From the NCBI GenBank assembly GCA_944388805.1, contig CALXKE010000008.1, forward strand, positions 1 through 64,000: a DNA stretch of 64,000 nt, written 5' to 3'. Of this stretch, positions 22,692 through 44,287 are shown one piece after another (the stretch's first letter is position 1; each line of letters begins with the position of its first letter). The position numbers were made by a program, and so were the translations under genes. This DNA comes from an uncultured Clostridia bacterium. GTDB lineage: Bacteria; Bacillota; Clostridia; TANB77; CAG-508. Under the pieces are notes generated by a model, which was not told where the DNA came from, ran no database searches, and was given only the letters and a program-made list of their open reading frames with translations.

Positions 22692-22720
22692 TTCACAAAT
22701 CAAAAATTTTTTGATATAAT
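22692..22720 (+). promoter_or_regulatory. Promoter of leader 1
   Basis: TTCACA (22692-22697) and TATAAT (22715-22720), 17-bp spacer with the shared caaaaattttttga tract. It is located immediately after lspA. Confidence 0.8.
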
Positions 22721-22726
22721 TTAAAA

Positions 22727-22931
22727 GTAAAATAAAAAATAGAGAAAGAAAGTAGGTATTAAAATGATAAAAAGCCTTGAAACCGTTGGGATAGTAACAC
22801 ACACACACACACAACCATTTTTAGATAACGAAATTGCTAGAAATAGCAAGGCTTTTAATGTACCTATAAATGAAAGAAGAAATCTAAAATTTAACTGTAT
22901 TTTAATGACAGTTATTTTAGGTTTCTTTTTG
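22727..22931 (+). ncRNA. CA-leader RNA, copy 1 (structured leader plus terminator)
   Basis: First of eight related leaders. Pairings: AGGTA (22754-22758) with TACCT (22861-22865); AAAAGCCTTG (22770-22779) with CAAGGCTTTT (22847-22856); CGTT of AACCGTTG with AACG; and hairpin TTGCTA-GAAA-TAGCAA (22834-22849) with a GNRA loop. The (CA) tract (22797-22812) has 8 units. A terminator hairpin (AGAAATCTAAAAT...ATTTTAGGTTTCT then TTTTT) ends at 22931, 23 bp before the next start codon. A 67-codon open frame crossing it is not conserved in other copies. Confidence 0.8.
22797..22812 (+). repeat. (CA)8 tract in leader 1
   Basis: Eight AC dinucleotides in the loop region of the leader. The other copies have 5 to 13 units, some interrupted. 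Confidence 0.9.
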
Positions 22932-22953
22932 TATTTAGGGAAAGGAGGGAAAA

Positions 22954-23616
22954 ATGGAAAAGTGTAAATATCATCAAAATGAAGAAGTAAAATATTCTTG
23001 TAAGAACTGCGGAAAAGGTATTTGTCAAAAATGTTATGATATTTTAGATGACATAGATAAACATACATATTTGCATAATATATTTATGGAAATACCAAAA
23101 AATACTTGTATGTCTTGTACCTTATTTAATCTTACTAATTATAAAGAAATTATAGATTTGGAGGAAAAAGAGATTGTTAATAAATATATATTTATACTAT
23201 TCTTATATGTGATTGGAATAATTGTATTTATTGTTTCTGCGATTTTAGAAAGTTTTTTTATAATATTGGGGTTTTTCTTATGTGGATATGGTGCATGGTA
23301 TTATTATGATGAAGGATTATTGACATTAAAGGAGAGGAAAGATTTAGGTGTTGAAAATTATGAAATTACAAAAGGAATTAGTGGATATAATATTAAACAA
23401 ACAGAACCAGATTCACTTGTTATAGTTGCTGTGTTTTTATGGTTAATAGGTATTATTTCGACACCAATATATCTTTTGATTAATATAAGAAAAGTGAAAA
23501 GAACTCATGATACTTATTTGTATATAAAGAATTTGATAGATAAGTTAGAAAAATTAACTCATAAAAAATATGTTTATGATAAAAAAAGGCAAAGATATAT
23601 AGAAACAAAAATTTAG
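22954..23616 (+). CDS. B-box-type zinc-finger membrane protein
   Basis: A 220-residue protein. An N-terminal zinc-binding domain (about 1-60: CKYHQNEEVKYSCKNCGKG, CQKCYD, HTYLHNI, CMSC) resembles the B-box zinc finger found in front of membrane domains in Clostridia. Three or four membrane segments follow (about 77-120 and 150-175), then a charged C-terminus. It is the first gene after leader 1 and has a GGAGGG site. A truncated remnant of the same start occurs after leader 5 (34821-34862). The function is unknown. Confidence 0.7.
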   Translation: MEKCKYHQNEEVKYSCKNCGKGICQKCYDILDDIDKHTYLHNIFMEIPKNTCMSCTLFNLTNYKEIIDLEEKEIVNKYIFILFLYVIGIIVFIVSAILESFFIILGFFLCGYGAWYYYDEGLLTLKERKDLGVENYEITKGISGYNIKQTEPDSLVIVAVFLWLIGIISTPIYLLINIRKVKRTHDTYLYIKNLIDKLEKLTHKKYVYDKKRQRYIETKI

Positions 23617-23678
23617 AATATTATTGATGAGTATTATAACCGAATTACATTATTGAGATAATGAAGGGAGTGTTTATA

Positions 23679-24671
23679 ATGAACAAAAAAATTATAATTG
23701 GAATACTATTAAGTTTATTATTAATGTTAGTTGTATTAACAGGGTGTGGAAATACTGAAAATATTCAATCAAGTAGTGAATCTGGAAATGTTAATAATAA
23801 TTCATCGGATGTCCAAATAGGTGATTATATTGCATATAATACTGGGACAGGAAATACATATACAGCTAAAGCAGAAACAACTGGTTACGATAAAGACCAA
23901 ATTTTTGAAACTACAGGAGAAGAAAAATGGAGAGTATTAAGTATTGAAGATGATGGAACTATAAATTTAATAAGTGCAAAGCCAATTACAACTAAATTTG
24001 AAAAAGGTTTTTTTCTAAAGGATAAACAAGGATTTGAAAATGGGGTAAAAGAATTAAACGCAATTTCAGAAATATATGGAAAAGGTGAGTTTGCAGAAAG
24101 TGCTAGAAGTATGAAAATGGAGGACATAAATCAGTATTTGGATGTGGATGAAGTAGGAAGATTCTATCAAAATGAATATGAAGTAGATTTATCTGAGTAT
24201 AGTGGACAAGATAAATGGAATAAAATTTATGAATTAATGAATGCAGATTATGGGAAAGAATATACACTTAATGGTTCAACTAGAAAAGTTAGTTTCGCAT
24301 TTGATTGGTATTCTAGGGAAAATATTGATTTAAGAGAGGTAATAAAAGACCAAAATGTAATTAATGTATTGCAAGTAAATGCAGATGAAGATAAACAAAA
24401 TAAAATTATATTAGCAGATGAAATAGTTAAGCTAGGAAAATATGCTCAAGAGCCAAGTTATTTTATATTAGGATTAGGATTTTATAGGGTAAGTGATTCA
24501 TCAAGCACATATGGTATGGAAACATTAGGAGATGAAAATAGTGAAGATGCACCTAATAATGTTGTATATAGAGCAAATGAAACTTTCATACGACCAGTAG
24601 TAACATTAAAAAATAATGTTAGAATTGATAGAGGAACTGGAACAGAGGAAGATCCATTTACATTAAAATAA
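23679..24671 (+). CDS. Lipoprotein with DUF6273-like domain (paralogue A)
   Basis: About 330 residues. The signal peptide ends in lipobox LTGC (C23), so the protein is lipidated. The mature part starts with a Ser/Asn linker, then VQIGDYIAYN and EKWRVLSIEDDGTINLIS, and ends RPVVTLKNNV...GTGTEEDPFTLK. This domain pattern (GDY, W-RVL, DG-LIS, RPVVTL) is shared with the lipoprotein at 35370, so the two are paralogues. ATG 23679 is chosen for the GAAGGGAG site and the signal peptide. It is probably surface-exposed; no enzymatic residues are evident. Confidence 0.8.
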   Translation: MNKKIIIGILLSLLLMLVVLTGCGNTENIQSSSESGNVNNNSSDVQIGDYIAYNTGTGNTYTAKAETTGYDKDQIFETTGEEKWRVLSIEDDGTINLISAKPITTKFEKGFFLKDKQGFENGVKELNAISEIYGKGEFAESARSMKMEDINQYLDVDEVGRFYQNEYEVDLSEYSGQDKWNKIYELMNADYGKEYTLNGSTRKVSFAFDWYSRENIDLREVIKDQNVINVLQVNADEDKQNKIILADEIVKLGKYAQEPSYFILGLGFYRVSDSSSTYGMETLGDENSEDAPNNVVYRANETFIRPVVTLKNNVRIDRGTGTEEDPFTLK

Positions 24672-24678
24672 ATTGATA

Positions 24679-24749: not shown

Positions 24750-24778
24750 TTCACAAAATAAAATTTTTTTGCTATAAT
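24750..24778 (+). promoter_or_regulatory. Promoter of leader 2
   Basis: TTCACA (24750-24755) and TATAAT (24773-24778), 17-bp spacer with the same A/T tract as the other copies. Confidence 0.8.
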
Positions 24779-24784
24779 TTAAAA

Positions 24785-24992
24785 GTAAAATAAAAAATAG
24801 AGAAAGAAAGTAGGTATAAAAATGATAAAAAGCCTTGAAACCGTTGGGAGAGTAACACACACACACACACACACACAACCATTTTTAGATAACGGAATTG
24901 CTAGCAATAGCAAGACTTTTAACATACCTAAAAATATGAAGAACTTAAAATATAACTGTAGATAATTACAGGAATATTTTAAGTTCTTTTTG
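24785..24992 (+). ncRNA. CA-leader RNA, copy 2
   Basis: Same architecture as copy 1. Here the pairing CCGTT with AACGG is fully Watson-Crick, and the hairpin is TTGCTA-GCAA-TAGCAA. The helix AGCCTTG with CAAGACT has one C-A mismatch. The (CA) tract (24855-24876) has 11 units. The terminator AAGAACTTAAAAT...ATTTTAAGTTCTT with a T-run ends near 24992, and a GAGGGGG ribosome binding site follows. Confidence 0.8.
24855..24876 (+). repeat. (CA)11 tract in leader 2
   Basis: Eleven uninterrupted AC units within the leader loop. Confidence 0.9.
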
Positions 24993-25026: not shown

Positions 25027-25683
25027 ATGAAAAAATCAAGTGGAAACAAAAAAAGCAATCTAATTATTTTAGCAATAGTAGGAGCAATTATCATAATATT
25101 TGCGGTATTATGTTTAATTGAATCAGGTAAAGAAGCCGAACCTAATTATGAAGGATGGAAAATGCAAACAAGAGAAGAAGTACAAGAGGAATTGGATAAT
25201 ATGGGAGCAATAGGAGGAGTTTTATTAGTTGTAGGTATAGGAATTGAAGTATTTGCATTTGTAAAAAATCAAGCTAATTCAAAATTGTCAACAGAAGAAT
25301 CAGAAACAATAGATCGTTATGAAAAGAGATTGAAAGAATTAAATAATGAATTAAAAGAAAATAAGATAACAAAAGAGGAATATGCAAATAAGAAAGCAAA
25401 AATTTTAAATAATATTGTATCAGAAGTAAATACATTAGATTTACTAAAAAAACGATTAAGAGAAATGACAATAGATGACTTAGTTACTGAAGAAGAAGTA
25501 AAGAATATAATTGAAAATATAAATACAGATAATAAAAAAACAAAAAATAAAAGAACAGCTACGATTTGTATAATTATCATTGTACTTTTTGTTGTTGGAA
25601 CTATTGTAGGAATTGCAAGTTCTAGTAAGAATGAAAAGAAATATGATTATAAATTTCCAAGTGATATAACAACATCAGAGTAG
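25027..25683 (+). CDS. Membrane protein with SHOCT-like segment
   Basis: A 218-residue protein with membrane helices at about 12-35, 58-78 and 180-200. Between them is a helical region containing RLKELNNELKENKITKEEY, a SHOCT-like short C-terminal-type motif. The end is polar (NEKKYDYKFPSDITTSE). It is the first gene after leader 2. SHOCT motifs recur in the proteins at 28009 and 28425. A role in oligomerisation of surface complexes is only inferred. Confidence 0.6.
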   Translation: MKKSSGNKKSNLIILAIVGAIIIIFAVLCLIESGKEAEPNYEGWKMQTREEVQEELDNMGAIGGVLLVVGIGIEVFAFVKNQANSKLSTEESETIDRYEKRLKELNNELKENKITKEEYANKKAKILNNIVSEVNTLDLLKKRLREMTIDDLVTEEEVKNIIENINTDNKKTKNKRTATICIIIIVLFVVGTIVGIASSSKNEKKYDYKFPSDITTSE

Positions 25684-25697
25684 AAAGGTGGCAAAAA

Positions 25698-26171
25698 ATG
25701 AAGAAAATTATAACATATATATCTGTCTGCATATTATTAATTATGACACTATTATTATTTACAGGATGTGAAAACTTAAATGAAAATAGTGAAAATCAAA
25801 TTAAAGAGGAAGGAAACGCAAATAATACAGTAACAAGTGAAAAGGAATCAAAAGGAATAGAAGTAGGAGATAATCTATTAAAATATGGAACATATGAAGG
25901 AATAGAGTTAGCAAAAGGAAGCAGTATTACTTTAAATGAAGATGGAACCTTTTTGTATAAAGATGAAGAAACATCAGGAGAAGGCACATATGAAGTGAAA
26001 AATCAAGAAATAGATGATATAGAAGGTAGTTATAACGCATGGGTGATAGAATTTGATTCAATAGAAAAAGTATCCAATGGAAAGATAACGGAAGATTTCT
26101 ATTGGTTGTTTACTCAAACAGGAGATATTTCACAAGAACAGGCTTCAATCAATTTTAATTATAAAGAATAA
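25698..26171 (+). CDS. Lipoprotein, small beta-rich domain (paralogous to 42089 product)
   Basis: A 157-residue lipoprotein with FTGC lipobox (C24). After a Glu/Asn linker the domain reads YGTYEGIELAKGSSITLNED (shortened) and GTYEVKNQEI, a pattern of a small lipocalin-like or META-like sheet also seen in the lipoproteins at 42089 and, loosely, 33197. It starts 14 bp after the SHOCT-like gene in the same module. The function is unknown. Confidence 0.72.
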   Translation: MKKIITYISVCILLIMTLLLFTGCENLNENSENQIKEEGNANNTVTSEKESKGIEVGDNLLKYGTYEGIELAKGSSITLNEDGTFLYKDEETSGEGTYEVKNQEIDDIEGSYNAWVIEFDSIEKVSNGKITEDFYWLFTQTGDISQEQASINFNYKE

Positions 26172-26190: not shown

Positions 26191-26219
26191 TTCACAAATC
26201 AAAAATTTTTTGATATAAT
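26191..26219 (+). promoter_or_regulatory. Promoter of leader 3
   Basis: TTCACA (26191-26196) and TATAAT (26214-26219), 17-bp spacer, almost identical to promoter 1. No terminator is seen between the preceding gene and this promoter. Confidence 0.8.
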
Positions 26220-26225: not shown

Positions 26226-26438
<213 letters not shown>

Positions 26439-26465: not shown

Positions 26466-27971
26466 ATGAAAAAGAAAACTCCATTGTTACATATTATATT
26501 AATTTTAATAGTTTTACTTTTTTTTATTACAGGATGTAGAAATAAAGAAGAAAATGTCCAAGGAGAAAATGTTCAAAATCAAAATATAGTTCAAGAAAAT
26601 GCAAATTTAAATCCTGAATTAAATGGAGTAGTGGGTTTTGCAGAAAAAATAGATGGAGAAAACAGTTCAAAAATAGTAGCATTAAAAAATGATGGAACTG
26701 AAATAGAGATTACAAAAGCAGATACAAATGAATATGATACCTTAACTTATTATGCAGGAAAAATCTATTTAAAGAGAAAGAAAAACTTTTATGAAGTTGA
26801 TTTAACCAATGGCGATGGTAATTATAAAGTATCTAAAATATTTGGATATCCTATGGACACCAATAATTATTATGATAGATATAACTTTAATTATATTTAT
26901 GTGTATGAAGGAAAATTATATTTTCTAAAAGATACGGATGAATTGATTGAATATGATTTAAAAACTAAAAAAGTTAATGAATTAATTAAAGATGTAGATT
27001 ATATTGATTTTAGAATGGATAAAGAAAATGGAATAATTTACTATGTAGAACAAAATTCCAAGTATGCACTTAAATCATATAACATAAAAACTAAAGAAAC
27101 TAAGCAAATTGAAGAAGGTGCAAGTAGAAGTTATCAGTATTCTTCTAAAAGTACTAATTTACCAATAGAATTTGTTGGTATAGGTGTAAATCAAGGTAAA
27201 ATTTTATATAGTAAAGGTGAGTTTGATGAAGAAGGAACTTCAATTTTTGATACATACTTATATGACATAAAAAGTGGGGAAAAAGAAAAAATTGATGATA
27301 TAAATACAGGAATTTATTCTGATGGCAAATTATATTATTCAGCAACTCTTCAAAGTAGTGAGCCATATCCACCTAAAGATTTAAAAGTATATGAAAATAG
27401 AAATATATCAGAAATTAGTGAATATCAAGAAAATGACTATACAAAGTTTTATGATTTAGGTAATGGTAAAATTCAAGCTGTAATGTATTGGGGACAAGAT
27501 ATATCAACATATGGTGAACAAGCATATACAATTGATAAGAAAACAAATGAAGTAATGAAATCAGATTTAAATTACAGCATGGTCTATTTAATTCAAAATG
27601 TAGATAATGCACCAAAAGTAGAAAGTAAAGAAACCGTAGAAAATAAAATAACGATTGAAAAAGCAGAAGAAATTATCAAAAATAAATGGGGTATAGAACC
27701 AGACAATAATAACCAAGCAATACCAGAAGCAAATAGTTATATACTTCAAGGTGGAAAACTTGATTTTACAATAAGAGATACTGATGGATTAGAATATTAT
27801 GTATTTTCTTATTATTCGAAAGTAGGAGAAACAAGTGGAGAATATCATAATACCCATATACAAACAATATTTATTTCAGTTGACGGAAAGAAATATAAAA
27901 TAAGATCATTAGGTGATAATTTTGAGGATAAAGATGTTGTCACACAATTTGATGAAGAAGGAGAAATTTAA
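26466..27971 (+). CDS. Large lipoprotein with beta-propeller-like (DUF5050-type) repeats
   Basis: A 501-residue lipoprotein with ITGC lipobox (C24). The central part (about 60-380) holds repeated short strands such as YYAGKIYLKRK, YEGKLYFLKDTDEL, GIIYYVEQNSK and DGKLYYSATLQ, typical of DUF5050/TolB-like propeller domains. The C-terminal 100 residues form a separate domain (ITIEKAEEIIKNKWGIE). ATG 26466 follows AGGGGGAATT, so it is the first gene after leader 3. It is probably a surface binding protein. Confidence 0.75.
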   Translation: MKKKTPLLHIILILIVLLFFITGCRNKEENVQGENVQNQNIVQENANLNPELNGVVGFAEKIDGENSSKIVALKNDGTEIEITKADTNEYDTLTYYAGKIYLKRKKNFYEVDLTNGDGNYKVSKIFGYPMDTNNYYDRYNFNYIYVYEGKLYFLKDTDELIEYDLKTKKVNELIKDVDYIDFRMDKENGIIYYVEQNSKYALKSYNIKTKETKQIEEGASRSYQYSSKSTNLPIEFVGIGVNQGKILYSKGEFDEEGTSIFDTYLYDIKSGEKEKIDDINTGIYSDGKLYYSATLQSSEPYPPKDLKVYENRNISEISEYQENDYTKFYDLGNGKIQAVMYWGQDISTYGEQAYTIDKKTNEVMKSDLNYSMVYLIQNVDNAPKVESKETVENKITIEKAEEIIKNKWGIEPDNNNQAIPEANSYILQGGKLDFTIRDTDGLEYYVFSYYSKVGETSGEYHNTHIQTIFISVDGKKYKIRSLGDNFEDKDVVTQFDEEGEI

Positions 27972-28008
27972 AGTTAAAAAAATAATTATAGAAGGGGGAA
28001 CATATAAA

Positions 28009-28410
28009 ATGAAAGAAAAAATGAAGTTAATACAAAGGAATTGTTTAATATTTGCGATAATAGGATTTGTACTAATTATTATAGGAATAGGATTTATAAC
28101 TAATAGCAGTAGCAGTGGAGGATCTTGGAGTGGTGGATGGTATAGCAATATAAAGAAACAAAGAGAACAAGAACAACAAACAGGAGTAATATGTATTGCT
28201 ATTGGTTTGGGAGTATATGTGTTCGATATCATATATTATAATCATGCAAAGGCTAATTTGAATAATAACTCTGGAAATCAAAAGAATATTAGTGTTTCAA
28301 ATGACGATAGTGCTTCAAAGCTAAGACAGTTAAAAGAAATGTATGATGATGGAATAATAAGTAAAGAAGAATTTGAACAGAAGAAACAAAAAATATTAAA
28401 TAATATGTAA
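28009..28410 (+). CDS. Small two-TM protein with C-terminal SHOCT domain
   Basis: A 133-residue protein with membrane helices at about 12-32 and 58-78 joined by a Gly/Ser-rich loop (SSSSGGSWSGGW). A SHOCT domain (LRQLKEMYDDGIISKEEFEQ, residues about 105-128) ends the protein. ATG 28009 has GAAGGGGG upstream. The SHOCT sequence is almost the same as that at the N-terminus of the next protein, hinting at duplication or interaction. Confidence 0.75.
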   Translation: MKEKMKLIQRNCLIFAIIGFVLIIIGIGFITNSSSSGGSWSGGWYSNIKKQREQEQQTGVICIAIGLGVYVFDIIYYNHAKANLNNNSGNQKNISVSNDDSASKLRQLKEMYDDGIISKEEFEQKKQKILNNM

Positions 28411-28424
28411 GGGAGAATAAATAT

Positions 28425-29819
28425 ATGAGTAATGAAAAATTATCACAATTAAAACAAATGTTAAGTGATGGAACTATAAGTAAGGAAGAATTTGAGCAAA
28501 AGAAAAAGGAATTGAATTTAAAAGAATCTAAACTAGAACAGGAAAAAAGGAATAATAAGAAAACCATTATTATTGTAGTAAGTATAATTATAATAATACT
28601 TATAGTTTGCTCTATAATAGCCACATCAAGCGAAAAGAGAAGGACTGATAGAATTTTAAATACTCTTAATATAACACAAGAAAAATCAGAAGAAAAAGAA
28701 ACAGGAGAAACGACAGCATATGAAGTGGTACAAAATTTTTCAGAAGATGGTTTATCATGGGTTTATACTGAGATAAAAGAAGATTTAAATTCAAATGACT
28801 ATTATATATGTATAAATAGAAATGGGGAGTCATTAATAAAGTATAAAGAATATGATTATGAATATGCACCGGATGGAATAAAAGAAGTTACAGGTTTTCA
28901 CAATGGTATTTGTATTATTACGGATGGAGAAAACAAAAAGAAGGTTATAGATAAAGAAGGAAATGTAATTATAGCAGAAGGTGATGAAGCTTGCACCAAA
29001 ATTATTTCTACTGATACAACGCTGGGGTATATTATAGTTGAAAAAATAGATGATTCATATAAAGGTACAAATACTTCATATGGTGTTGTAGATAACCAAG
29101 GAAATTTTGTAATACCATTGTCAGAGAATAATGCAGAAACTTTTGGACAAGGTGAGTTAGAAACGGTTGCAAAGGGAATATATAGAAAAGGAAAAGAAAT
29201 AGTAAATATAGAAACTGGAGCTAAAGTAGAAACTGGTAATGAATATGGAGATAAATTTATCAATGCTGAGGGAAAAATAATTTACTGTAATAAAAACTTA
29301 ATTAGTGACATTGTGGTATATTCTTCAAGTGATTTGAAGGAAACAGCACGTAAAAATGTTAGATCAATTAAAACAGTTGGAAATTATTCAGATGGAAAAT
29401 TTTATATAGAATATGAAGATGAAAATGAAAATAAAAAAAGAGTATTTTTAAATGATAATTTGGGAACAGTAGCTGATGTATCTGATTTAGAAATAACAAA
29501 TGTACCAGTATTTAAAGATGGATATGCAGGATTAGTAATTAGAGAAAAGTGGTATACAGTAATCGATGGGAATGGAAAAATGCAATTTGAACCAGCTGAT
29601 GGTACTGTATGTATAAATTTGGGTGATAAGAAATTTTATATAGAATCTAATAAAGTTTATACGATAAATGATGAAAAAAATAGTATTCTTACTCAATTAA
29701 AGGAACATATGAAAGTAGAAGATAAAAAATATTGGTATACTGATGGATATATTATTACTAATCTAGGATTATATATGGATACAAATGGTGAATATTTAAA
29801 AGTTAACTTAAAAAATTGA
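28425..29819 (+). CDS. Membrane-anchored protein with N-terminal SHOCT and WG-type repeats
   Basis: A 464-residue protein: SHOCT (about 4-30, LSQLKQMLSDGTISKEEFEQ), a helical segment, one membrane helix (about 46-66) and a large outer domain with degenerate WG/KWG-type repeats (KKKVIDKEGNVIIAEG, YGVVDNQGNFVIPLS, WYTVIDGNGKMQFEP). It starts 14 bp after the previous gene. A SHOCT inside and repeats outside suggest a membrane-spanning organiser; this is inference. Confidence 0.72.
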   Translation: MSNEKLSQLKQMLSDGTISKEEFEQKKKELNLKESKLEQEKRNNKKTIIIVVSIIIIILIVCSIIATSSEKRRTDRILNTLNITQEKSEEKETGETTAYEVVQNFSEDGLSWVYTEIKEDLNSNDYYICINRNGESLIKYKEYDYEYAPDGIKEVTGFHNGICIITDGENKKKVIDKEGNVIIAEGDEACTKIISTDTTLGYIIVEKIDDSYKGTNTSYGVVDNQGNFVIPLSENNAETFGQGELETVAKGIYRKGKEIVNIETGAKVETGNEYGDKFINAEGKIIYCNKNLISDIVVYSSSDLKETARKNVRSIKTVGNYSDGKFYIEYEDENENKKRVFLNDNLGTVADVSDLEITNVPVFKDGYAGLVIREKWYTVIDGNGKMQFEPADGTVCINLGDKKFYIESNKVYTINDEKNSILTQLKEHMKVEDKKYWYTDGYIITNLGLYMDTNGEYLKVNLKN

Positions 29820-29848
29820 TTATATTCAAGTAAAAGGAGAATTTATAA

Positions 29849-31050: not shown

Positions 31051-31079
31051 TTCACAAATCAAAAATTTTTTGATATAAT
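31051..31079 (+). promoter_or_regulatory. Promoter of leader 4
   Basis: TTCACA (31051-31056) and TATAAT (31074-31079) with 17-bp spacer. Confidence 0.8.
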
Positions 31080-31838: not shown

Positions 31839-31863
31839 AAAGTGAAAGAAAGGAAGAGGATAA

Positions 31864-33111: not shown

Positions 33112-33118
33112 ATGAAGC

Positions 33119-33156: not shown

Positions 33157-33196
33157 TATAATATTTTGATTGCAAAATTCAAAGGGAGTAGATGAC

Positions 33197-33706: not shown

Positions 33707-33724
33707 AAAAAACAGGAGAATAAG

Positions 33725-34556: not shown

Positions 34557-34585
34557 TTCACAAAATCAAAAATTTTTGGTATAAT
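34557..34585 (+). promoter_or_regulatory. Promoter of leader 5
   Basis: TTCACA (34557-34562) and TATAAT (34580-34585), 17-bp spacer; TGG before the -10 gives an extended -10. Confidence 0.8.
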
Positions 34586-35346: not shown

Positions 35347-35369
35347 AAATATTAGAAGGAGTGAAGAGG

Positions 35370-36486: not shown

Positions 36487-36515
36487 TTCACAAAATTAGA
36501 TTTTTTTGGTATAAT
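36487..36515 (+). promoter_or_regulatory. Promoter of leader 6
   Basis: TTCACA (36487-36492) and TATAAT (36510-36515), 17-bp spacer, extended -10 TGG. Confidence 0.8.
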
Positions 36516-36521: not shown

Positions 36522-36721
36522 GAAAAAATAAAAAAAGAGAAAGGAAGTAGGTACAAAAATGATAAAAAGTCTTGAAACCGTTGCAGGAGTAACACACACA
36601 CACACAATCACTTTTAGATAACGAAATTGCTGGTAATAGCAAGACTTTTGGTGTACCTAAAAATAGAAGAAACCTTAAATATAATCGTATTTAATCACGA
36701 TTATGTTTTGGGTTTCTTTTT
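36522..36721 (+). ncRNA. CA-leader RNA, copy 6 (separated from its gene by an IS)
   Basis: AGTCTTG/CAAGACT, hairpin TTGCTG-GTAA-TAGCAA (one G-U pair), AGGTA/TACCT and (CA)7 at 36592-36605. The terminator uses a different but still fully paired sequence, AGAAACCTT with GGGTTTCT and ATCGT with ACGAT. The expected ribosome binding site does not follow, because the IS110 element has been inserted downstream. Confidence 0.82.
36592..36605 (+). repeat. (CA)7 tract in leader 6
   Basis: Seven AC units, the shortest uninterrupted tract of the family. Confidence 0.9.
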
Positions 36722-36804: not shown

Positions 36805-36860
36805 CAATATAGACAACAAACTCAAAAGTCTATGAAATTAATATATTGGAGGTAAGAATA

Positions 36861-38144
36861 ATGACTAAATCACAAAATTTAAAATTTGATGCTATTGAAA
36901 ACACAGATGCAATCGTAGGAATAGACATAGCAAAAAATGTACATTGGGCAGGAATAATCCTACCAAATGGGAAAGAAATAAAAAAATCTTTCTCTTTTAA
37001 TAATAACAAAATAGGTTTCAAAAGTCTAGTAGAAACAGTAAAAAATGTTTTAACAATGTTGAACTTTAAAAAAGTAATAATAGGAATGGAGCCAACAGGA
37101 CACTACTGGAAATGTTGTGCAAGGTACTTAAAGAAAATAGAATGGATAAAAGTAGTAACAGTAAATCCATACCATGTTAAGAATTCAAAAGAGTTTGATG
37201 ATAATTGCCAGACAAAGAGTGATAAAAAGGACTGTATGACAATAGCAAGACTAATAAAGGATGCAAGATATTTTGAACCATATCTACCAGAAGGAATATG
37301 GGCAGAATTAAGAAATTTATCAAATACAAGAGCAGAAATAGTAAGAAAACAAAATGCAGTAAAGAATAGACTAGTGGCAACAATGGACGAATATTTTCCA
37401 GAATACACAAAAGTATTCAAACAAATATTAAGTAGAACATCAGAAGAAATACTAAAAGAATGTCCATTTCCTGAAGACATAAAAAGCAAAGGAGAAGAGG
37501 ATTTACTAAAGCATATAAAGAAAACAGTTAAAAGAGGATATACAAAAAAACAAGTAGAAAAAATATACAAAGCAGCAGAAGAAAGTATAGGAACAGAAGA
37601 AGGAATCAACGGAGCTAAATTTCAAATAAAAATGTATATTGAAGAAGCAGAAATGTTAAAGAAACAAATAAAAATGACAGAGGAAGAATTAGAAAAGCAA
37701 CTAAAAGAAACAGGATTTTATGAAAGTATAATAAGCATAAAAGGAATAGGAGTAGTAAGTGCAGCAATGTTCATAGGAGAAATAGGAGACATCAATAGAT
37801 TTGATAGTTATGAGCAAATAAGAAGATATGCAGGATTAAATCTAGTAGAAAATAGTTCAGGAACACATAAAGGAAGAACAACAATATCGAAAAGAGGAAG
37901 AAGTCTGTTAAGAAGTATATTGTATAGAATGGCATTCACAATGGTTAATAAAAATGAGGAGATAAAAGAACTGTACAGATATTTAACTACAAGAAAAGAA
38001 AATCAACTAAAGAAGAAGCAAGCAATAGTAGCAGTAATAGGAAAGATATTACAAATCATATATGCAGTAGTAAGCAAAAATGAAGAATATAAGGCTACAA
38101 GAGTATTTACACAAAATAGATTAGCACAACTAAAAGTGGCATAA
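36861..38144 (+). CDS. IS110-family transposase (DEDD recombinase)
   Basis: A 427-residue transposase with the two IS110 domains. The N-terminal RuvC-like DEDD domain has D22 in VGIDIAKN, E in IGMEPTGHYW and the D residues of FDDNCQTKSDKKDC. The C-terminal Transposase_20 domain has IKGIGVVSAAMFIGEIGD, YAGLN and the serine region ENSSGTHKGR. The start at 36861 follows GGAGG. IS110 enzymes insert without target duplication under guidance of a bridge RNA encoded in the element ends. It appears intact and separates leader 6 from its lipoprotein gene. Confidence 0.95.
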   Translation: MTKSQNLKFDAIENTDAIVGIDIAKNVHWAGIILPNGKEIKKSFSFNNNKIGFKSLVETVKNVLTMLNFKKVIIGMEPTGHYWKCCARYLKKIEWIKVVTVNPYHVKNSKEFDDNCQTKSDKKDCMTIARLIKDARYFEPYLPEGIWAELRNLSNTRAEIVRKQNAVKNRLVATMDEYFPEYTKVFKQILSRTSEEILKECPFPEDIKSKGEEDLLKHIKKTVKRGYTKKQVEKIYKAAEESIGTEEGINGAKFQIKMYIEEAEMLKKQIKMTEEELEKQLKETGFYESIISIKGIGVVSAAMFIGEIGDINRFDSYEQIRRYAGLNLVENSSGTHKGRTTISKRGRSLLRSILYRMAFTMVNKNEEIKELYRYLTTRKENQLKKKQAIVAVIGKILQIIYAVVSKNEEYKATRVFTQNRLAQLKVA

Positions 38145-38161
38145 ATATATTTAATTTAGCT

Positions 38162-38245
38162 AGATAAAAGTGACATGAGGGAGGATTCCCCCATAAGGCC
38201 TTAAATGAGCCAGTTTTTAAGCAGTAATGCCATGTCACTTTATCT
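38162..38245 (+). ncRNA. Structured RNA candidate at the IS110 right side (possible bridge RNA)
   Basis: AGATAAAAGTGACATG (38162-38177) and CATGTCACTTTATCT (38231-38245) form a stem of about 15 bp enclosing two smaller stem-loops (GGGAGG...CCCCC and CTTAAA...TTTAAG). Directly downstream of an IS110-family transposase this is where IS1111-type bridge RNAs are found. Guide loops would lie between the inner stems. It could also be a terminator-like structure, but no T-run follows. Confidence 0.5.
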
Positions 38246-38481
38246 TTATACATTGAACGAAGGATGGTAAGGACTGATTTAAGCAGATCCAGAGAGAAAA
38301 GATAGGGTTAATGGTAAAGAAAGATTCTAGGTAAATTCAAATTAAATAAAATGATTAAAAGTACACTTTTTAGTGTGTCTATTAAAGATGTTATTAAATT
38401 TATTAAAATAAAATAAAAAACTAAGATAAATGAAGATATCGAGAGATAATTAATTCATTTATAGAGATAGGGGGAATTAAA
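38246..38481. other. IS110 right flank and module 6 remainder, no gene
   Basis: About 235 bp without a gene. It should contain the right end of the IS and the rest of the module 6 leader-to-gene spacer (AGGGGGAATT survives at its end). The IS boundary cannot be placed because IS110 elements leave no target duplication. Confidence 0.5.
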
Positions 38482-39693
38482 TTGAAAAAGAAAAAATTAA
38501 GTATTGGAGTGATAATAATAACAATAATAACATTATTATTGTTGACTGGATGCGAAAATGAAAATAATACGGAATTAAAAAACGAAGAGGGAACATCCGA
38601 AACTTTGGAAATAACAAACAATAATAATAAAAATCTATACTTAGTAACAGACGAAAATAATAAATATGGTTTTATTGATGAAAATGGAAACGTAATAATT
38701 GATCTTCAATATGATGAGGCATCACAGTTTGAAGAAGGATTTGCAGGAGTAAAAAAAGATGAAAAGTATGGTCTTATAGATAGTAGTGGAAATGAGATAA
38801 CTAATTTTGAATATGATGAAGTAAATACATTTTCTGATGGATTAGCAAGTGTAAAACAAGGAGAAAAATGGGGATTTATAGACAATCAAGGAAATGTGGT
38901 AATTGATTTTAAATATAGTAGAGGATCATATTTTTTAGATGGCTTAGCAGTAGTCATGGATGAAAATAGAAATACTGGTGTAATAGACAAACAGGGAAAC
39001 ACAGTTATAGATTTTGGAAAATACGAATATATTAGTGAATTCAGTAATGGCATGGCAATGATAGAAACTGATGGAAAAAGTGGATTCATAAATAAAGATG
39101 GAGAAGTAGTTATAGAATGTGAATATGATAGTGCAAGCGATTTTTACAACGGATTAGCAAGAGTTGGAAAGGTTAGCAATGGAGAAACAAAATATGGAGT
39201 AATAGATAAGCAAGGAAATATAGTAGCTAACTTAGAATATGATAATATTACAATTTCTAATAATTCAATAGCATTAGATGGATTGATAATTGCCGAAAAG
39301 AATGGAAAATATGGTTTTTTGGATGAAAAAGGAAATATTGGTATTGATTTTATTTATGACAATGTAAAATATTTTTCAGAAGATCTATCAGCGGTAGAAC
39401 AGAATGGAAAATGGGGATTTATTGATAGAAAAGGAAATACAGTTATTAAGTTTCAATATGATGATGCAGGATATTTTTCAGAAGATTTAGTAGCTGTAAA
39501 ACAAAATGATAAATGGGGATATATAAATAAAAATGGGGAAACAGTTATTGATTTTGGATATAAAGAAGCTAGTTCTTTTAAAGATGGGATATCAATAGTA
39601 TCTAGCCAAGATGAAAAGTATAAATTAATAGATAAAGAGGGAATAGATAGAAGTTCTGAATATAAATCTATAGCAAGACCAACAGACGAATAA
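38482..39693 (+). CDS. WG-repeat lipoprotein
   Basis: A 403-residue lipoprotein read from TTG with AGGGGGAATT 7 nt upstream and LTGC lipobox (C24). From about residue 55 it contains roughly ten WG-type repeats (KYGFIDENGNVIIDLQYD, KWGFIDNQGNVVIDFKYS, KWGYINKNGETVIDF), several with the canonical WG. It is closely related to the protein at 29849. The IS110 insertion upstream has cut it off from leader 6, so its expression may have changed. Confidence 0.88.
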   Translation: MKKKKLSIGVIIITIITLLLLTGCENENNTELKNEEGTSETLEITNNNNKNLYLVTDENNKYGFIDENGNVIIDLQYDEASQFEEGFAGVKKDEKYGLIDSSGNEITNFEYDEVNTFSDGLASVKQGEKWGFIDNQGNVVIDFKYSRGSYFLDGLAVVMDENRNTGVIDKQGNTVIDFGKYEYISEFSNGMAMIETDGKSGFINKDGEVVIECEYDSASDFYNGLARVGKVSNGETKYGVIDKQGNIVANLEYDNITISNNSIALDGLIIAEKNGKYGFLDEKGNIGIDFIYDNVKYFSEDLSAVEQNGKWGFIDRKGNTVIKFQYDDAGYFSEDLVAVKQNDKWGYINKNGETVIDFGYKEASSFKDGISIVSSQDEKYKLIDKEGIDRSSEYKSIARPTDE

Positions 39694-39767
39694 AAGAGAA
39701 ATATTTAATAAGTAAATTACAAAATCAGATATATAAATAAAAGACTAAATAATGTATGGAGGAAAAA

Positions 39768-40655
39768 ATGAGTATTTTAGAAGATATATTTTCTTCTTTT
39801 ATAGGAGGAATTGTTGCTTTTGCGGGAATAGTTATGTGGATATTGTTAATTCTTTTTGGTAACGGAATAATGGATCAAGCAATAGTTGTAGGAAATTTAA
39901 TTACAACATTCATTTTAGTTGGATTATGGATTCACACGATTGTAGAATGGATAATTGATTTAGTCAAAGATAAACAACAAAAAAATTCTAACAGAATTTT
40001 TACGATTATAAAAATCGTAATTATAATATTAATTTTTATTGGATTTTTTATATATGGATATACACATCCTTACAATAATTTGGTATTTCATTATTCATAT
40101 ATTCCAATATTTAGTGCAATACATACTATGTGGATTCCTGCATTAGTATTATTCTTAATCAATGGAGTTGTAGGAAAAGGAAAAGTTACAAATAAAATTT
40201 CAGGATTATTAGGAATTATTGGAATGTGGTTATTAGCAATATTGGTTTCATTTTTTATAGGACAAATAATAACAGGTTGCTTAGGATTTTTCTGGGGAAT
40301 AGATGAAACTAAAGGATTATACAATAATATTTGTTATTATGAAAATTTAGGAAATCCTTTTGCTAGAGAATATGACGAAGTTTTAGAAGATGCAAATGAG
40401 GCATTAGATAAATATAGGAGTGATTTGAAAAGTCAGAATCAAGATAATTCAATAGCAAATATTATTGAATTACTAATGGTAGATCCAGATTTTAAAGATG
40501 ATTATCTTTCAGAGTACAGGTTAACTTGTTGGGATTTTGAAAAACTAGAAAATGGAGATTTAAAATATATTATAAGAGATAATGAAGAAAAAGAACATAA
40601 ATGGACAGTATTATTAAAAAAGGACAGAGAAAATTTTGAGAAATTTGTAGAATGA
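39768..40655 (+). CDS. Polytopic membrane protein, unknown function
   Basis: A 295-residue protein with about five membrane helices in the first 180 residues and a soluble C-terminal domain (AREYDEVLEDANEALDKYRS, YRLTCWDFEKLENGDLKYII). ATG 39768 is chosen over 39756 because GGAGG lies just upstream. It is the last gene of module 6. No family is recognised. Confidence 0.6.
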   Translation: MSILEDIFSSFIGGIVAFAGIVMWILLILFGNGIMDQAIVVGNLITTFILVGLWIHTIVEWIIDLVKDKQQKNSNRIFTIIKIVIIILIFIGFFIYGYTHPYNNLVFHYSYIPIFSAIHTMWIPALVLFLINGVVGKGKVTNKISGLLGIIGMWLLAILVSFFIGQIITGCLGFFWGIDETKGLYNNICYYENLGNPFAREYDEVLEDANEALDKYRSDLKSQNQDNSIANIIELLMVDPDFKDDYLSEYRLTCWDFEKLENGDLKYIIRDNEEKEHKWTVLLKKDRENFEKFVE

Positions 40656-40750: not shown

Positions 40751-40779
40751 TTCACAAAAATATTTTTTTTTGCTATAAT
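40751..40779 (+). promoter_or_regulatory. Promoter of leader 7
   Basis: TTCACA (40751-40756) and TATAAT (40774-40779), 17-bp spacer. Confidence 0.8.
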
Positions 40780-40785: not shown

Positions 40786-40985
40786 GAACAAAAAAAGAAA
40801 GTAGGTATAGAAAATGTTTAAAAGTCTTGAAACCGTTGGGAGAGTAACACACACACACACACACAAGCATTTTTAGATAACGGAATTGCTAGAAATAGCA
40901 AGGCTTTTAGTGTACCTAAAAATATAAAGAACTTAGAATATAACTGTAATTAAAACAGGTGTATTTTAGGTTCTTTTTTGTTTTC
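40786..40985 (+). ncRNA. CA-leader RNA, copy 7
   Basis: CCGTT/AACGG fully paired, AGTCTTG/CAAGGCT paired with a G-U wobble, hairpin TTGCTA-GAAA-TAGCAA, (CA)9 at 40847-40864. The terminator AAGAACTTAGAAT...ATTTTAGGTTCTT plus six T is followed by AGGGGGAATT and the start codon at 41016. The 5' part is shorter than in the other copies. Confidence 0.8.
40847..40864 (+). repeat. (CA)9 tract in leader 7
   Basis: Nine uninterrupted AC units. Confidence 0.9.
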
Positions 40986-41015: not shown

Positions 41016-42029
41016 ATGAAAAAGAAAATTTTAGGAGTATTAATTGTAATTATACTGATAATTACATTAATTAGTCTTACAGGATGTGGAAATGATTCGA
41101 ACGAACAAAACAGTGATAATGGAAAGAACACATCAAATATGGAAGATGTGGAATTGTATCCAGTAAAAGATGAGGAAACAGATATGTTTGGATATGTAGA
41201 CAATAAAGGAAAATGGGTAATCGAACCTAAATATGAATCAGCTTCTGGATTTGACCCAGAAACTGGTCTAGCATTGGTTTGGACTTCTAATGAAGGCTTT
41301 AATCATGGTTTCATCAATAAAAAAGGAGAAATGGTAATAGAAGACAAATATGGACGTGGTACAAGCTCATTTTATAATGGTTATGCAGTAGTAGAAACAG
41401 AAATCAAAGGAGGAAGTTCTAATACATATTATACGAAAATGTTAATTGATAAAGACCAAAATATAATTATTCCAGATGAAAAATATATTGAAATGACTGA
41501 TGTTTCTAAAAATGGATTAGTAGGAGTAGTTTATGATGCTGGAATGCAATATATTAAACTAGATGGTACATTAGCATTTGATAAAAAATTTGGTTCAAAT
41601 GGAACAGGTTTTAATGCAAATGGTATTGCAGCAGTTGAAACAGCAGTTTTATCTAATAGTTATATACTAATTGATGAACAAGGAAATCAAATTGGAGATA
41701 AAACATATGGCGAAATCACTAAATTGAATGATAACAACTATGGTTTTGCACATAATATCGATGGGTATGCAATAATTAATGGAAATGGAGAATTTTTATC
41801 AGAACACATTTATGAGTACACATCGGAATTTAATAATAGTAATATAGCGATGGTTAAAACTGAAAATAAAAATAAATGGCATTTAATTAATAACGAAGGT
41901 AAAGAGATAAATGATAATACTTATAAATTATATCAATTACTATTAGATGGCAAATGGGTTGTAACTTTAGAAGATGGAAAACATCAAATATTAAATGCTG
42001 ATGGAAGCATTTTAGTAGATACTTTTTAA
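41016..42029 (+). CDS. WG-like repeat lipoprotein
   Basis: A 337-residue lipoprotein with LTGC lipobox (C24). The outer part contains WG-like units (MFGYVDNKGKWVIEPKYES, NHGFINKKGEMVIEDKYG, YAIINGNGEFLSEHIYE) that are less regular than in the proteins at 29849 and 38482. It is the first gene after leader 7. Confidence 0.82.
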   Translation: MKKKILGVLIVIILIITLISLTGCGNDSNEQNSDNGKNTSNMEDVELYPVKDEETDMFGYVDNKGKWVIEPKYESASGFDPETGLALVWTSNEGFNHGFINKKGEMVIEDKYGRGTSSFYNGYAVVETEIKGGSSNTYYTKMLIDKDQNIIIPDEKYIEMTDVSKNGLVGVVYDAGMQYIKLDGTLAFDKKFGSNGTGFNANGIAAVETAVLSNSYILIDEQGNQIGDKTYGEITKLNDNNYGFAHNIDGYAIINGNGEFLSEHIYEYTSEFNNSNIAMVKTENKNKWHLINNEGKEINDNTYKLYQLLLDGKWVVTLEDGKHQILNADGSILVDTF

Positions 42030-42088
42030 TCAGTATCATAATAGTAATTACAAATAAAATTTTAGTTAAATGAAAAAAAGGTGAAAAA

Positions 42089-42700
42089 ATGAAAAAGATT
42101 ATTTTAACTATTGGAATGATTTTGATAATGGGAACATTGTTATGTATTCTTACAGGATGTAAAGAAAATCAAGAAGAGAATATAAAAAATACGAATGATA
42201 TGACAGAATCTAACATAAATAATGCAGGAAACAATATAGAAGATACTAATAATCATCAAGAAAATACAATAAAAAATGAAACGAATACATCTAACAATAT
42301 TCAAGCATCTAATTCAAAAGAAGATAAGAATACATCAAAAAATGATAATGAACAAACAAAAGAAAAGAATGAAACAACAACAAATACACCAAAGAAAACA
42401 ACATTTAATGTAGGAAAGTACACCCTACATTATGGGAAATACAAAGGTAGTGGTACTAAATTAATAGATACTAGTATAGTTAGTGCAACTATTATAGTTA
42501 ATTTAAAAGAAGATGGAACATATACATATACTTCAACAAATCAAAAAGTAAGTGAAGACCGTTCTGGAACATATGAAATTAAAAATAATAATGTAATAGT
42601 TCTTAATGCAGATGAGCCTTTGGAATATACAGTTATGGGAAATGATTATCTTATAGAAAGACAGTCAAGTGGATTTACATTTCACTATCAAGAAAATTAA
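42089..42700 (+). CDS. Lipoprotein with long Asn/Thr/Lys linker and small beta domain
   Basis: A 203-residue lipoprotein with LTGC lipobox (C24), a low-complexity linker (about 25-110) and a C-terminal domain (LHYGKYKGSGTKLID, NLKEDGTYTYTSTNQ, GTYEIKNNNVIVL) paralogous to that of the lipoprotein at 25698. The linker probably lifts the domain through the cell wall. The ribosome binding site is AAAAGGTGA. Confidence 0.75.
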   Translation: MKKIILTIGMILIMGTLLCILTGCKENQEENIKNTNDMTESNINNAGNNIEDTNNHQENTIKNETNTSNNIQASNSKEDKNTSKNDNEQTKEKNETTTNTPKKTTFNVGKYTLHYGKYKGSGTKLIDTSIVSATIIVNLKEDGTYTYTSTNQKVSEDRSGTYEIKNNNVIVLNADEPLEYTVMGNDYLIERQSSGFTFHYQEN

Positions 42701-42730
42701 ATATATGAAATGAAAATGGAGGAAAAAAGG

Positions 42731-43171
42731 ATGAAAAAGAAAATTTTAAGTGTAAGTATAATAATAGCATTATTAATGTCAATGTTAGTAATGTTAACAG
42801 GATGTGGTAGTGATACTGCTCAATATGATGAAAACGGAGAATATGCTCAATACATAGAAAAAATCAGAAATACGAAAAGTGTGACAAAGTATGGAATGCA
42901 TACTTATGGAGAATTATTTGATGCTATATTAAAAAATTCAAAATGGGATCATTATTCAAATTATTTAGGAAATGGAAGTGAAGTAGCCATTAGTGTAACA
43001 GGTGAAAATAAAAATACTGGAGATGACATTGAATTTGTATTTGTAACTCGTACAAATAGTGATACAGTAGGATTTGAAAGTGGTACAAAAAATGGCGAAA
43101 GTGTTGATGTATATGACTTAAGTGAAGAATTACTAGAGGTAGCATATGAAGAATTAGGAGGAGAAGAATAA
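42731..43171 (+). CDS. Small lipoprotein (paralogue of the 45091 product)
   Basis: A 146-residue lipoprotein with LTGC lipobox (C25). The mature domain (YGMHTYGELFDAILKNSKWD, VAISVTGENKNTGDDIEFVF) matches the lipoprotein at 45091 in order and spacing. ATG 42731 has GGAGG upstream. The function is unknown. Confidence 0.75.
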   Translation: MKKKILSVSIIIALLMSMLVMLTGCGSDTAQYDENGEYAQYIEKIRNTKSVTKYGMHTYGELFDAILKNSKWDHYSNYLGNGSEVAISVTGENKNTGDDIEFVFVTRTNSDTVGFESGTKNGESVDVYDLSEELLEVAYEELGGEE

Positions 43172-43211
43172 ATTAACAAGGGCATAAAATAAAATTTACA
43201 AGGAGAAATTT

Positions 43212-44003
43212 ATGGAAAAAATTGATTTTAAAGAACGTTTTCATGATTTAACAGATAAAATCAAGTTTGGGTTTATAAATAATAAATTTACAGCAATTTT
43301 AGGAATATGCACAATTATTCCCATTATTATTAGTTTAAATGTATGGGATGGTAATGCTATTATAGGACTTGCAGTAGTTCCAATTTTATATAGGATAATT
43401 TGTAATATTATTCTATGGATTATAAAGAAAAAAGGCAGACCAGAAAATACAAGACTATTTAACAATATAAGTAGAATATCAGTATTTATTGGATTTTTTA
43501 TTTTAGCATGTTTAAGTACAGCGTTAGGAAGAGAAGAAATGGGATTTATTGAAATGATACTCTTATGTATATGTATAGCTTATTTTGATAAATTACTAAT
43601 TCTTATATTTAAAGCTATTACTGGTGTAGCATTTAATGGAGTTATTTTTAGTTCAGATTCAAGTGTTGAGAGTGTAGATTCATTAATTAATGAAACAAAA
43701 ATTACTTTTGACAGAGCTGATGGTAGCAAAATTTATCAAGATGCAAATGGTAAAACGATTGGTATATCAAGATATAATAAAACAACAGGAGAAACGACTT
43801 ATTGGAATGAAAATATGCAGTATGTAGGAAAATCAGAAAAAGATAATAACGGTAATGAAAGATATTTTGATAGTAAGCTTAATTATAAAGGTCAAAGTGA
43901 AAAGAACAGTAATGGATATACAACATATTATGATGAAAAATTAAATTATAAAGGAAAATCCAGAAGTAATAGTAATGGAACAGATAGTTATTTAAAAAAA
44001 TAA
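43212..44003 (+). CDS. Membrane protein with C-terminal MORN-like short repeats
   Basis: A 263-residue protein with about four membrane helices (about 25-160) and a polar C-terminal part made of about four short repeats of roughly 20 residues: YQDANGKTIGISRYN, YWNENMQYVGKSEKD, YFDSKLNYKGQSEKN, YYDEKLNYKGKSRSN. They resemble MORN or YD-like surface repeats. It closes module 7 with an AAGGAGAAA site. Confidence 0.65.
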   Translation: MEKIDFKERFHDLTDKIKFGFINNKFTAILGICTIIPIIISLNVWDGNAIIGLAVVPILYRIICNIILWIIKKKGRPENTRLFNNISRISVFIGFFILACLSTALGREEMGFIEMILLCICIAYFDKLLILIFKAITGVAFNGVIFSSDSSVESVDSLINETKITFDRADGSKIYQDANGKTIGISRYNKTTGETTYWNENMQYVGKSEKDNNGNERYFDSKLNYKGQSEKNSNGYTTYYDEKLNYKGKSRSNSNGTDSYLKK

Positions 44004-44059
44004 ATCCAATATTCATTGTGTATAAGGAGGCTCTGTTTTTATGAATTTTTCCAAAATTA

Positions 44060-44088
44060 TATACAATTTAAAAATATTTTGCTATAAT
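44060..44088 (+). promoter_or_regulatory. Promoter of leader 8 (degenerate -35)
   Basis: TATACA (44060-44065) and TATAAT (44083-44088), 17-bp spacer. The -35 is the only one in the family that departs from TTCACA. Confidence 0.6.
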
Positions 44089-44094
44089 ATTAAA

Positions 44095-44287
44095 GAATAG
44101 AAAAGAGAAAGGAAGGTACAAAAAAATTAAAAGCCTTGAAACCGTTGGGAGAGTAACACACAAACACACACAAGCGTTTTTAAACAACCAAATTGCAAGT
44201 AATTGCAAGGCTTTTTGCGTACCTAAAAATAGAAGAAACCTTGAATATAATCGTATTTAATCACGATTATGTTTTGGGTTTCTTTTT
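44095..44287 (+). ncRNA. CA-leader RNA, copy 8
   Basis: AGCCTTG/CAAGGCT, hairpin TTGCAA-GTAA-TTGCAA, terminator AGAAACCTT/GGGTTTCT with ATCGT/ACGAT as in copy 6. The tract is interrupted (ACACACAAACACACAC), and the ATG present in other copies before AAAAG is missing, which argues against a conserved leader peptide. An AAAGGGGAG site follows the terminator. Confidence 0.8.

Follow-up and report, generated by a model that had tools for sequence, protein, structure and literature searches.

The leaders and their promoters

The DNA considered here is a stretch of 64,000 nucleotides (nt), hereafter the window, from contig CALXKE010000008.1 (assembly GCA_944388805.1) of an uncultured bacterium of the class Clostridia, order TANB77. 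It carries eight copies (c1 to c8) of a leader of about 260 nt, starting at positions 22689, 24747, 26188, 31048, 34554, 36484, 40748 and 44055, all on the + strand and each 5' of a gene module. Each leader contains a CA tract and ends in a predicted terminator hairpin, and is very probably a phase-variable attenuator, in which slippage of the CA tract within a leader peptide gates an intrinsic terminator.

A preliminary description of this DNA, made from its letters alone, had recognized a family of eight leaders, seven of them with the same promoter. Both points were borne out: all eight copies lie within the window, and no ninth was found in the source genome (83.5% complete) either by a pattern or by a search with the DNA of the c3 leader. 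The pattern gave eight exact matches in that genome and two others with 2–3 mismatches, a level reached 15 times by the reversed control pattern; the DNA search returned these eight + strand leaders only. The promoter TTCACA-17-TATAAT heads c1 to c7, with 0.28 occurrences expected by chance, and an eighth match on the - strand (45978–46006) is unrelated to the leaders. Taken as a class, promoter-like sites show no excess in the region (133 vs 149 in shuffles). The core sequence previously described as conserved is less uniform: its 19-mer is exact in five of the eight copies (0.01 by chance), but has one mismatch in c1, three in c6 and more than three in c4.

A predicted hairpin followed by 5–7 T ends every copy (-18 to -27 kcal/mol, by a terminator search of our own design), so that the intrinsic terminator previously assigned to each leader was recovered in all eight. 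Coordinates of all features are collected in Table 1.

A CA tract within a predicted leader ORF

The preliminary description had noticed the CA tracts but had overlooked their position inside a reading frame. Each tract lies in a short open reading frame (ORF) for the peptide M-(I)-K-S-L-E-T-V-G-R-V-(T-H)n, with small variants among the copies, which starts with ATG in seven copies and with ATT in c8. After the tract, two of the frames stop early, at 45–52 nt before the hairpin in c1 to c7 and at 49 and 30 nt in c8, and the third (QAFLDNEIASNSKAFSVPKNRRNLKYNCN and variants) stays open in every copy. In six copies (c2, c3, c4, c6, c7 and c8) this open frame ends in the terminator loop; that of c5 ends in the 3' arm, and that of c1 beyond the hairpin.

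The ATG is in the open, terminator-reaching frame in three of the eight copies (c1, c2 and c4), which are predicted to be ON, and in a closed frame in c3, c5, c6 and c7, predicted to be OFF. The tract of c8 is in frame, but with ATT in place of ATG, and this copy is probably weak or dead; c4, with its short interrupted tract, is probably locked ON. Both c4 and c8 (the latter with an interrupted tract, an ATT start and no TTCACA) look like copies that no longer switch.

Public predicted proteins provide examples of different tract lengths. P0005, P0020 and P0007 are the c3, c6 and c7 peptides, respectively, exact on both sides of the tract and in frame, and imply tract differences of 4, 8 and 10 nt; P0001 and P0002, a pair belonging to the c2 leader, differ by one Thr-His unit. 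This variation is between public entries and at the protein level, and is not an observation of switching. A second protein search, with a leader of the type present in genome G033, gave 35 matches; P0035, P0036 and P0038 add little on allele variation.

Recurrence in the order and frame statistics

A search of 94 genomes with the c3 leader DNA gave matches in 39, the source genome included, many of them over the AT-rich promoter part only, and a plain (AC)7.5 tract was present in 38. In the source genome, the 22 overlapping (AC)7.5 matches are exactly the number that six leaders must give (tracts of 17, 23, 27, 21, 15 and 19 nt), and therefore that genome has no other such tract. Of 385 genomes sampled from the order, 147, belonging to 33 of 48 genera, contain an anchored pattern, STACACACACACACACA, with a maximum of 50 per genome (11 + 39 in G130). 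In a sample of 391 genomes of the class, the nine positive genomes all came from this order, and none of the 373 genomes from other orders was positive. It should be noted that the source genome itself scores 0 with the anchored pattern because its tracts follow GTA-A; the anchored counts therefore miss leaders of the window type. Counts of the reversed control pattern were close to zero in most genomes; in genus g37, however, they often came near those of the pattern, and the counts for that genus are therefore not clean. Judged from how common the reversed pattern is there, the CA tracts of g37 have a different right flank. In genomes G065, G091 and G097, several contigs begin in or beside a CA tract; such repeats may break short-read assemblies. 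Relatives of the leader in accessioned records were limited to two contigs, CALXAV010000001 and CASEEU010000053, and none was found in the viral contigs, plasmids and phages searched.

For an analysis of reading frames, 208 distinct tracts of at least 12 nt were gathered from 59 genomes of the order. After 37 with short flanks and two in an odd context had been dropped, 169 tracts from 54 genomes remained, including the six pure tracts of the window. These places are a hand-chosen subset, many of them reached through the anchored pattern, which selects for the GTA/CTA context, not for an ATG or for the frames after the tract. Pure CA tracts were 14–43 nt long. An in-frame ATG lies within 60 nt upstream of 158 of the 169 tracts, and the ATGs located 9–60 nt upstream are distributed over the three phases as 213:41:14. 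The median distances to the stop in the three frames are 11, 18 and 82 nt. A terminator was found for 123 tracts, and in 109 of these exactly one frame reaches it, compared with 29% when the stretch between tract and hairpin was shuffled; with one tract per genome, the same holds for 32 of 38 (32% in shuffles). Among the 109, the open stop is in the 5' arm of the hairpin in 20, in the loop in 44, in the 3' arm in 29 and after the hairpin in 16, and the closed stops come at a median of 44 nt before it.

Proposed mechanism

Directly visible in sequences are the ORF with its enclosed tract, the point at which each of the three frames stops, the predicted hairpin with its T run, and the protein entries with identical flanks and variant tract length. 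In the mechanism that we propose, the leader ORF would be translated, and the length of the tract would set the reading frame after (CA)n, with CA units being gained and lost by slipped-strand mispairing. The hairpin would terminate transcription unless blocked. A ribosome in the open frame would reach and block the hairpin, and transcription would continue into the surface-protein genes; in a closed frame, the ribosome would stop early, before the hairpin, and the gene set would be OFF. Slippage would likely move each gene set between these two states at random. In the subfamily of leaders present in the window, the helix P1 (see below) would pair with the leader's own Shine-Dalgarno (SD) sequence, and after the decision later ribosomes would be kept off the leader by the fold. 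The likely controller is repeat length together with the ribosome, and therefore the eight modules would switch independently; of the two options left by the preliminary description, that the lipoproteins are set together or separately, the latter is favoured.

Several observations weigh against this proposal. Of the seven copies within the range of a generic terminator scan, which requires three G-C pairs, only c3 and c4 were picked up. In the order, 46 of the 169 tracts have no terminator by the criteria used, and among the 123 that do, the terminator is reached by no frame in 10 and by two frames in four. In genome G078, the open frame ends 33 nt past the tract and falls short of the hairpins, which were located at 55–87 nt; only four of its 14 leaders fold into a longer stem that starts at 43–46 nt and has a T run behind it, so that G078 is either an exception or a limit of the 75-nt hairpin search. 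The stop-free 54 nt after the tract are not significant by themselves in the eight copies. Nor is the peptide after the tract under amino-acid constraint in them: five synonymous changes, 16 non-synonymous and no stop were counted, and random placement gives 5.0, 15.5 and 0.45. Amino-acid selection on the long leader peptide was thus looked for and not found; the absence of constraint fits a frame whose openness, rather than its product, matters, but removes one proof of translation. Of 109 assembled tracts, 15 are in the frame that reaches the terminator, which is below one third (36 genomes; p = 5e-6, with copies not independent); this looks as if OFF were the common state. Assemblies are moreover consensus sequences, in which switching within one strain is not seen. 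Some genes downstream of tracts in relatives, namely those for RimP and a transposon protein, are not surface genes. Finally, a nucleotide signal is also present before the tract: across 47 genomes, in codons -8 to -1, several codons are better conserved at their third position than at their second, and the third positions of the codons GCT/CTT, GAA/GTA, GNG and GTA/CTA are conserved, which is why a signal at the nucleotide level must be present there.

The RNA fold and alternative explanations

The preliminary description had also reported a covarying fold, and such a fold is indeed present in the eight copies and four relatives. It consists of P1 (GTAGGTA/TACCTA), P2 (AAAAGCC/GGCTTTT) and a P3 hairpin; the 5' strand of P1 is the purine-rich stretch before the leader ATG, that is, the leader SD region. 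In the 12-leader alignment, 98.2% of the fold cells are paired, a percentage favoured by the fact that the fold was drawn on the same 12 sequences used for the test, and 13 cells are changed on both sides; neither value was reached in any of 500 shuffles. Five pairs are changed on both sides (reached in one of 500 shuffles), and there are 13 further pair types (39 of 500). Controls with the partner strand slid pair in 28–53%. The strongest covariation is at the pair closing P1, which is C-G, U-A and U-G in four leaders each. Details of the earlier fold require correction: at the compensatory change proposed in P2, c2 has a C-A mismatch and c7 a U-G pair, the last three pairs claimed for that helix (TTG/CAA) compete with P3, and the GNRA loop, present in the eight window copies, is absent from two of the four relatives. 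The whole window has no Rfam match at gathering scores, in line with the earlier statement that no known class was recognized; a relaxed search, of 22600–27000 only, gave three sub-threshold matches, all at the c3 terminator region.

The folding z-score of c3 is -6.4, terminator included, and no helix of the fold overlaps the terminator. Across 40 leaders, one per genome, the median folding z-score is -0.94, and pairing of the SD region with sequence after the tract averages 0.17 vs 0.13 in shuffles. The SD region is unpaired with post-tract sequence in 27 of them, and nearly half or more of it is paired in 10, including window-type leaders. An SD-sequestering fold as a general feature of the order was thus not found on average, and because most of the 40 leaders do not share it, the fold is mainly a feature of a subfamily.

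These data bear on a first alternative, namely that the leader is a structured cis-regulatory RNA (a riboswitch or a protein-bound attenuator) that senses a ligand, the CA tract being a loop spacer. The covarying three-helix fold of the 12 leaders, the terminator adjoining it, the low z-score of c3 and the SD pairing in 10 of the 40 leaders all speak for it, but the missing Rfam match, the 27 leaders with no SD pairing after the tract, the small difference from shuffled sequences and the lack of overlap between fold and terminator do not, and it leaves the phase of the ATG and the single open frame unexplained. An ORF that contains the CA repeat and has a single frame leading on to the terminator, rather than the fold, is the trait common to the order, and for this reason we regard ligand sensing as very unlikely. 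The arrangement of a riboswitch or protein-controlled attenuator had been suggested in the preliminary description; a structured-leader attenuator does stand before each module, but control by a ligand or protein is not the best reading of it. The conserved bases just before the tract, third codon positions included, would also be accounted for if the tract length tuned the binding of a trans-acting small RNA (sRNA) or RNA-binding protein to the mRNA leader, for which RepG/tlpB of Helicobacter pylori is the model. That explanation is slightly less probable still: it does not predict the phase of the ATG, the single open frame or the stop in the hairpin, nor the loci, described below, where the frame continues into a protein.

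The His and Thr codon runs of the leader ORF, with a terminator behind them, also recall classical amino-acid attenuation, in which the ribosome would stall at Thr/His codons when the tRNAs are uncharged. With a ribosome stalled in the tract, however, the hairpin would still be free to form, and the minimum-energy fold of c3 shows no obvious antiterminator, although no systematic search for one was made. No His or Thr gene was present among the 20 proteins of the window and the 61 proteins or pieces of proteins of relatives that were scanned (with 25 of 40 families listed for one set). In addition, the tract is a near-perfect dinucleotide repeat instead of a mixture of synonymous codons, and tract lengths are not confined to one phase. 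We therefore hold amino-acid attenuation to be the most improbable of these alternatives, and retain the slippage-gated attenuator.

Relation to known systems

The architecture proposed here can be compared with known systems. In simple sequence repeat contingency genes such as opa of Neisseria and mod of Haemophilus, the repeats lie in the coding frame. A slippage-prone tract in a coding frame is likewise seen here, in the acyltransferase and type I specificity genes of relatives, but the tract of the window is in a separate leader ORF and would act via the terminator. Leader-peptide attenuators of the trp/his type consist of a short ORF and a terminator, and the position of the ribosome decides. 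These three elements would be shared by the window leaders, which differ in having no sensing codons as such and in that heritable tract length, not tRNA charging, would set the outcome.

The closest likeness is to the pil1 and pil3 leaders of Streptococcus gallolyticus. According to the description of pil1 by Danne and colleagues (2014; PMC3894217), slippage of a leader-peptide repeat gates a terminator, as shown with mutants; the closed stop lies 39–49 bp before the hairpin, the open stops lie 4 bp before it or inside it, and pil1 was also tested in a close relative of S. gallolyticus. The window leaders resemble this system in having the repeat within a leader-peptide ORF, in a frame that puts the stop before or in the terminator stem-loop, a closed stop about 40–50 nt before the hairpin, and surface genes downstream (pilus genes in the streptococcus). 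In all eight copies a leader ORF precedes the terminator (with ATT as start in c8), the repeat unit is not a multiple of 3, and the repeat number places the stop before or in/near the hairpin (past it in c1). In contrast, the streptococcal repeat is a GCAGA pentamer and not a CA dinucleotide; two loci are described there, compared with eight here and up to 50 tracts in a relative; and the covarying fold on the leader SD and the nucleotide motif before the tract are features of the present leaders. The mechanism at pil1 was shown with mutants, while that of the window leaders is predicted from sequence, and the likeness meant here is one of architecture.

The CA-tract system was not found in the literature searched, which held few subscription journals, and a term search of a 2025 review on phase variation (PMC11868660) gave no match. 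The only slippage-driven leader-peptide attenuators found in that literature are the two pilus operons of one streptococcus. Compared with pil1, the new elements would be the dinucleotide, the structured leader, the number of tracts (up to 50 per genome) and the occurrence in an uncultured clostridial order. The same logic would be a recurrent device in an order of uncultured Clostridia. The frame is readable from the sequence, so that long-read metagenomes could suffice, with no need of culture, for predicting which of dozens of surface genes are ON and which are OFF. The case also advises caution, since leaders that fold and end in a terminator may, as a family, be translated switches and not riboswitches.

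More tentatively, and with a chance that we put at clearly less than even, the tracts may form an order-wide contingency system, in which dozens of genes per genome, with roles at the surface, in glycans and in restriction-modification, are preceded by a portable cassette of start codon plus CA tract. It would have two outputs, ribosome-gated termination and the direct coding frame, and the motif before the tract would set the mutability of the tract or recruit a dedicated factor. If true, such a cassette would make the leader-peptide attenuator a genome-wide bet-hedging code.

Genes downstream of the tracts

Surface proteins, glycan enzymes and restriction-modification genes are the usual targets of phase variation. 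In the order, a motif search around 165 tracts showed that 96 are followed within 700 nt by a prepilin-like ORF (GITLIALVITIIVLLILAG and variants), and that none has such an ORF in the stretch of up to 700 nt before it. Slightly more than half of these cases (51 of 96) come from four genomes (G033, G078, G059 and G013), and the genome of the window has none (0 of six). The prepilin-like proteins (in G013, G033, G043, G078, G101 and others) are a large and diverse family, of about 240–640 amino acids (aa) among those printed, with a common N-terminus. The first downstream ORF was taken for 90 of 171 tracts, and 51 proteins, at most three per genome, were scanned; the families listed (25 of 40) include immunoglobulin-like and leucine-rich repeat domains, sugar and acyl transferases, type I specificity domains and a DNA methylase.

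In 14 of the 169 tracts, the open frame runs for at least 400 nt, to a stop in 12 and to the end of the contig in two; that of one further tract leaves its contig after 200 nt. A near in-frame ATG is present in 12 of these 15 loci, and at L054 the tract is inside the gene. Ten of the 15 were scanned, and gave two acyltransferases, two type I specificity domains, a DNA methylase, an ATP-grasp protein, one weak hexapeptide match and three proteins with no match. In these relatives, a tract within the gene's own coding frame would amount to ordinary coding-frame phase variation. At the restriction-modification loci, the CA tract is at the gene start in L225 (type I specificity) and L050 (DNA methylase), and inside the gene in L054 (type I specificity); such tracts may give phase-variable methylation in those species. 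On contig C3 of genome G050, L123–L125 and L062 form a cluster of CA-tract genes, with an acyltransferase, an ATP-grasp protein and others, which is possibly a phase-variable surface glycan locus.

Table 1. Leader features and gene modules of the window (positions are those of the whole stretch).
Copy	Feature	Positions	Strand	Remarks
c1	promoter	22692..22720	+	TTCACA-17-TATAAT
c1	leader ORF	22764..22967	+	in frame, 67 aa, runs through terminator
c1	CA tract	22797..22814	+	
c1	terminator hairpin	22876..22928	+	-18.1 kcal/mol
c1	gene module	22954..24671	+	protein with sub-threshold B-box match; lipoprotein 23661-24671
c2	promoter	24750..24778	+	
c2	leader ORF	24822..24965	+	in frame, 47 aa, stop in terminator loop
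c2	CA tract	24855..24878	+	
c2	terminator hairpin	24938..24989	+	-22.5 kcal/mol
c2	gene module	25027..26171	+	protein with hydrophobic stretch (no Pfam above cut-off); lipoprotein 25698-26171
c3	promoter	26191..26219	+	
c3	folded region	26251..26375	+	P1 26251-26257 (SD region) with 26370-26375, around P2 and P3 GNRA hairpin
c3	leader ORF	26263..26337	+	out of frame; open-frame stop 26408-26410 (loop)
c3	CA tract	26296..26323	+	
c3	terminator hairpin	26383..26433	+	-26.6 kcal/mol; also in generic scan
c3	gene module	26466..30877	+	lipoprotein; two ORFs (28425-29819: SHOCT); WG-repeat lipoprotein 29849-30877
c4	promoter	31051..31079	+	
c4	leader ORF	31125..31253	+	in frame
c4	CA tract	31155..31166	+	degenerate
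c4	terminator hairpin	31226..31276	+	-26.3 kcal/mol; also in generic scan
c4	gene module	31305..34501	+	TM2 protein; lipoproteins 31864-33111 and 33170-33706; further ORF
c5	promoter	34557..34585	+	
c5	leader ORF	34631..34696	+	out of frame; open-frame stop 34782-34784 (3' arm)
c5	CA tract	34661..34682	+	
c5	terminator hairpin	34741..34792	+	-18.6 kcal/mol
c5	gene module	34876..36398	+	two lipoproteins
c6	promoter	36487..36515	+	
c6	leader ORF	36559..36621	+	out of frame; open-frame stop 36692-36694 (loop)
c6	CA tract	36592..36607	+	
c6	terminator hairpin	36666..36719	+	-24.1 kcal/mol
c6	gene module	36846..40655	+	IS110 transposase 36846-38144; WG-repeat lipoprotein 38482-39693; further ORF
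c7	promoter	40751..40779	+	
c7	leader ORF	40814..40876	+	out of frame; open-frame stop 40951-40953 (loop)
c7	CA tract	40847..40866	+	
c7	terminator hairpin	40926..40976	+	-20.3 kcal/mol
c7	gene module	41016..44003	+	WG-repeat lipoprotein 41016-42029; two lipoproteins; further ORF
c8	promoter-like site	44060..44088	+	TATACA-17-TATAAT
c8	leader frame	44126..44260	+	in frame, ATT start, stop in loop
c8	CA tract	44156..44173	+	interrupted
c8	terminator hairpin	44232..44285	+	-24.5 kcal/mol
c8	gene module	44335..45874	+	ORF with no Pfam match; lipoprotein 45091-45468; further ORF

In the window, 13 proteins with a lipobox near the N-terminus are encoded by the genes after the leaders, in agreement with the earlier estimate of at least 13 lipoproteins. 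A module is present behind each leader, as previously described, but its first gene does not encode a lipoprotein in five cases: those after c1, c2, c4 and c8 have no lipobox, and the first gene after c6 is now an IS110 transposase. Two of the three WG-repeat lipoproteins are arrays with a spacing of 102 nt (34 residues). The IS110-family transposase gene lies directly 3' of the c6 terminator, between leader and lipoprotein (region 36720–38470). The CALXAV contig (L201), with no transposase in view, ends in the same flanking sequence after its leader. The IS110 element looks as if it targeted the spot after the leader.

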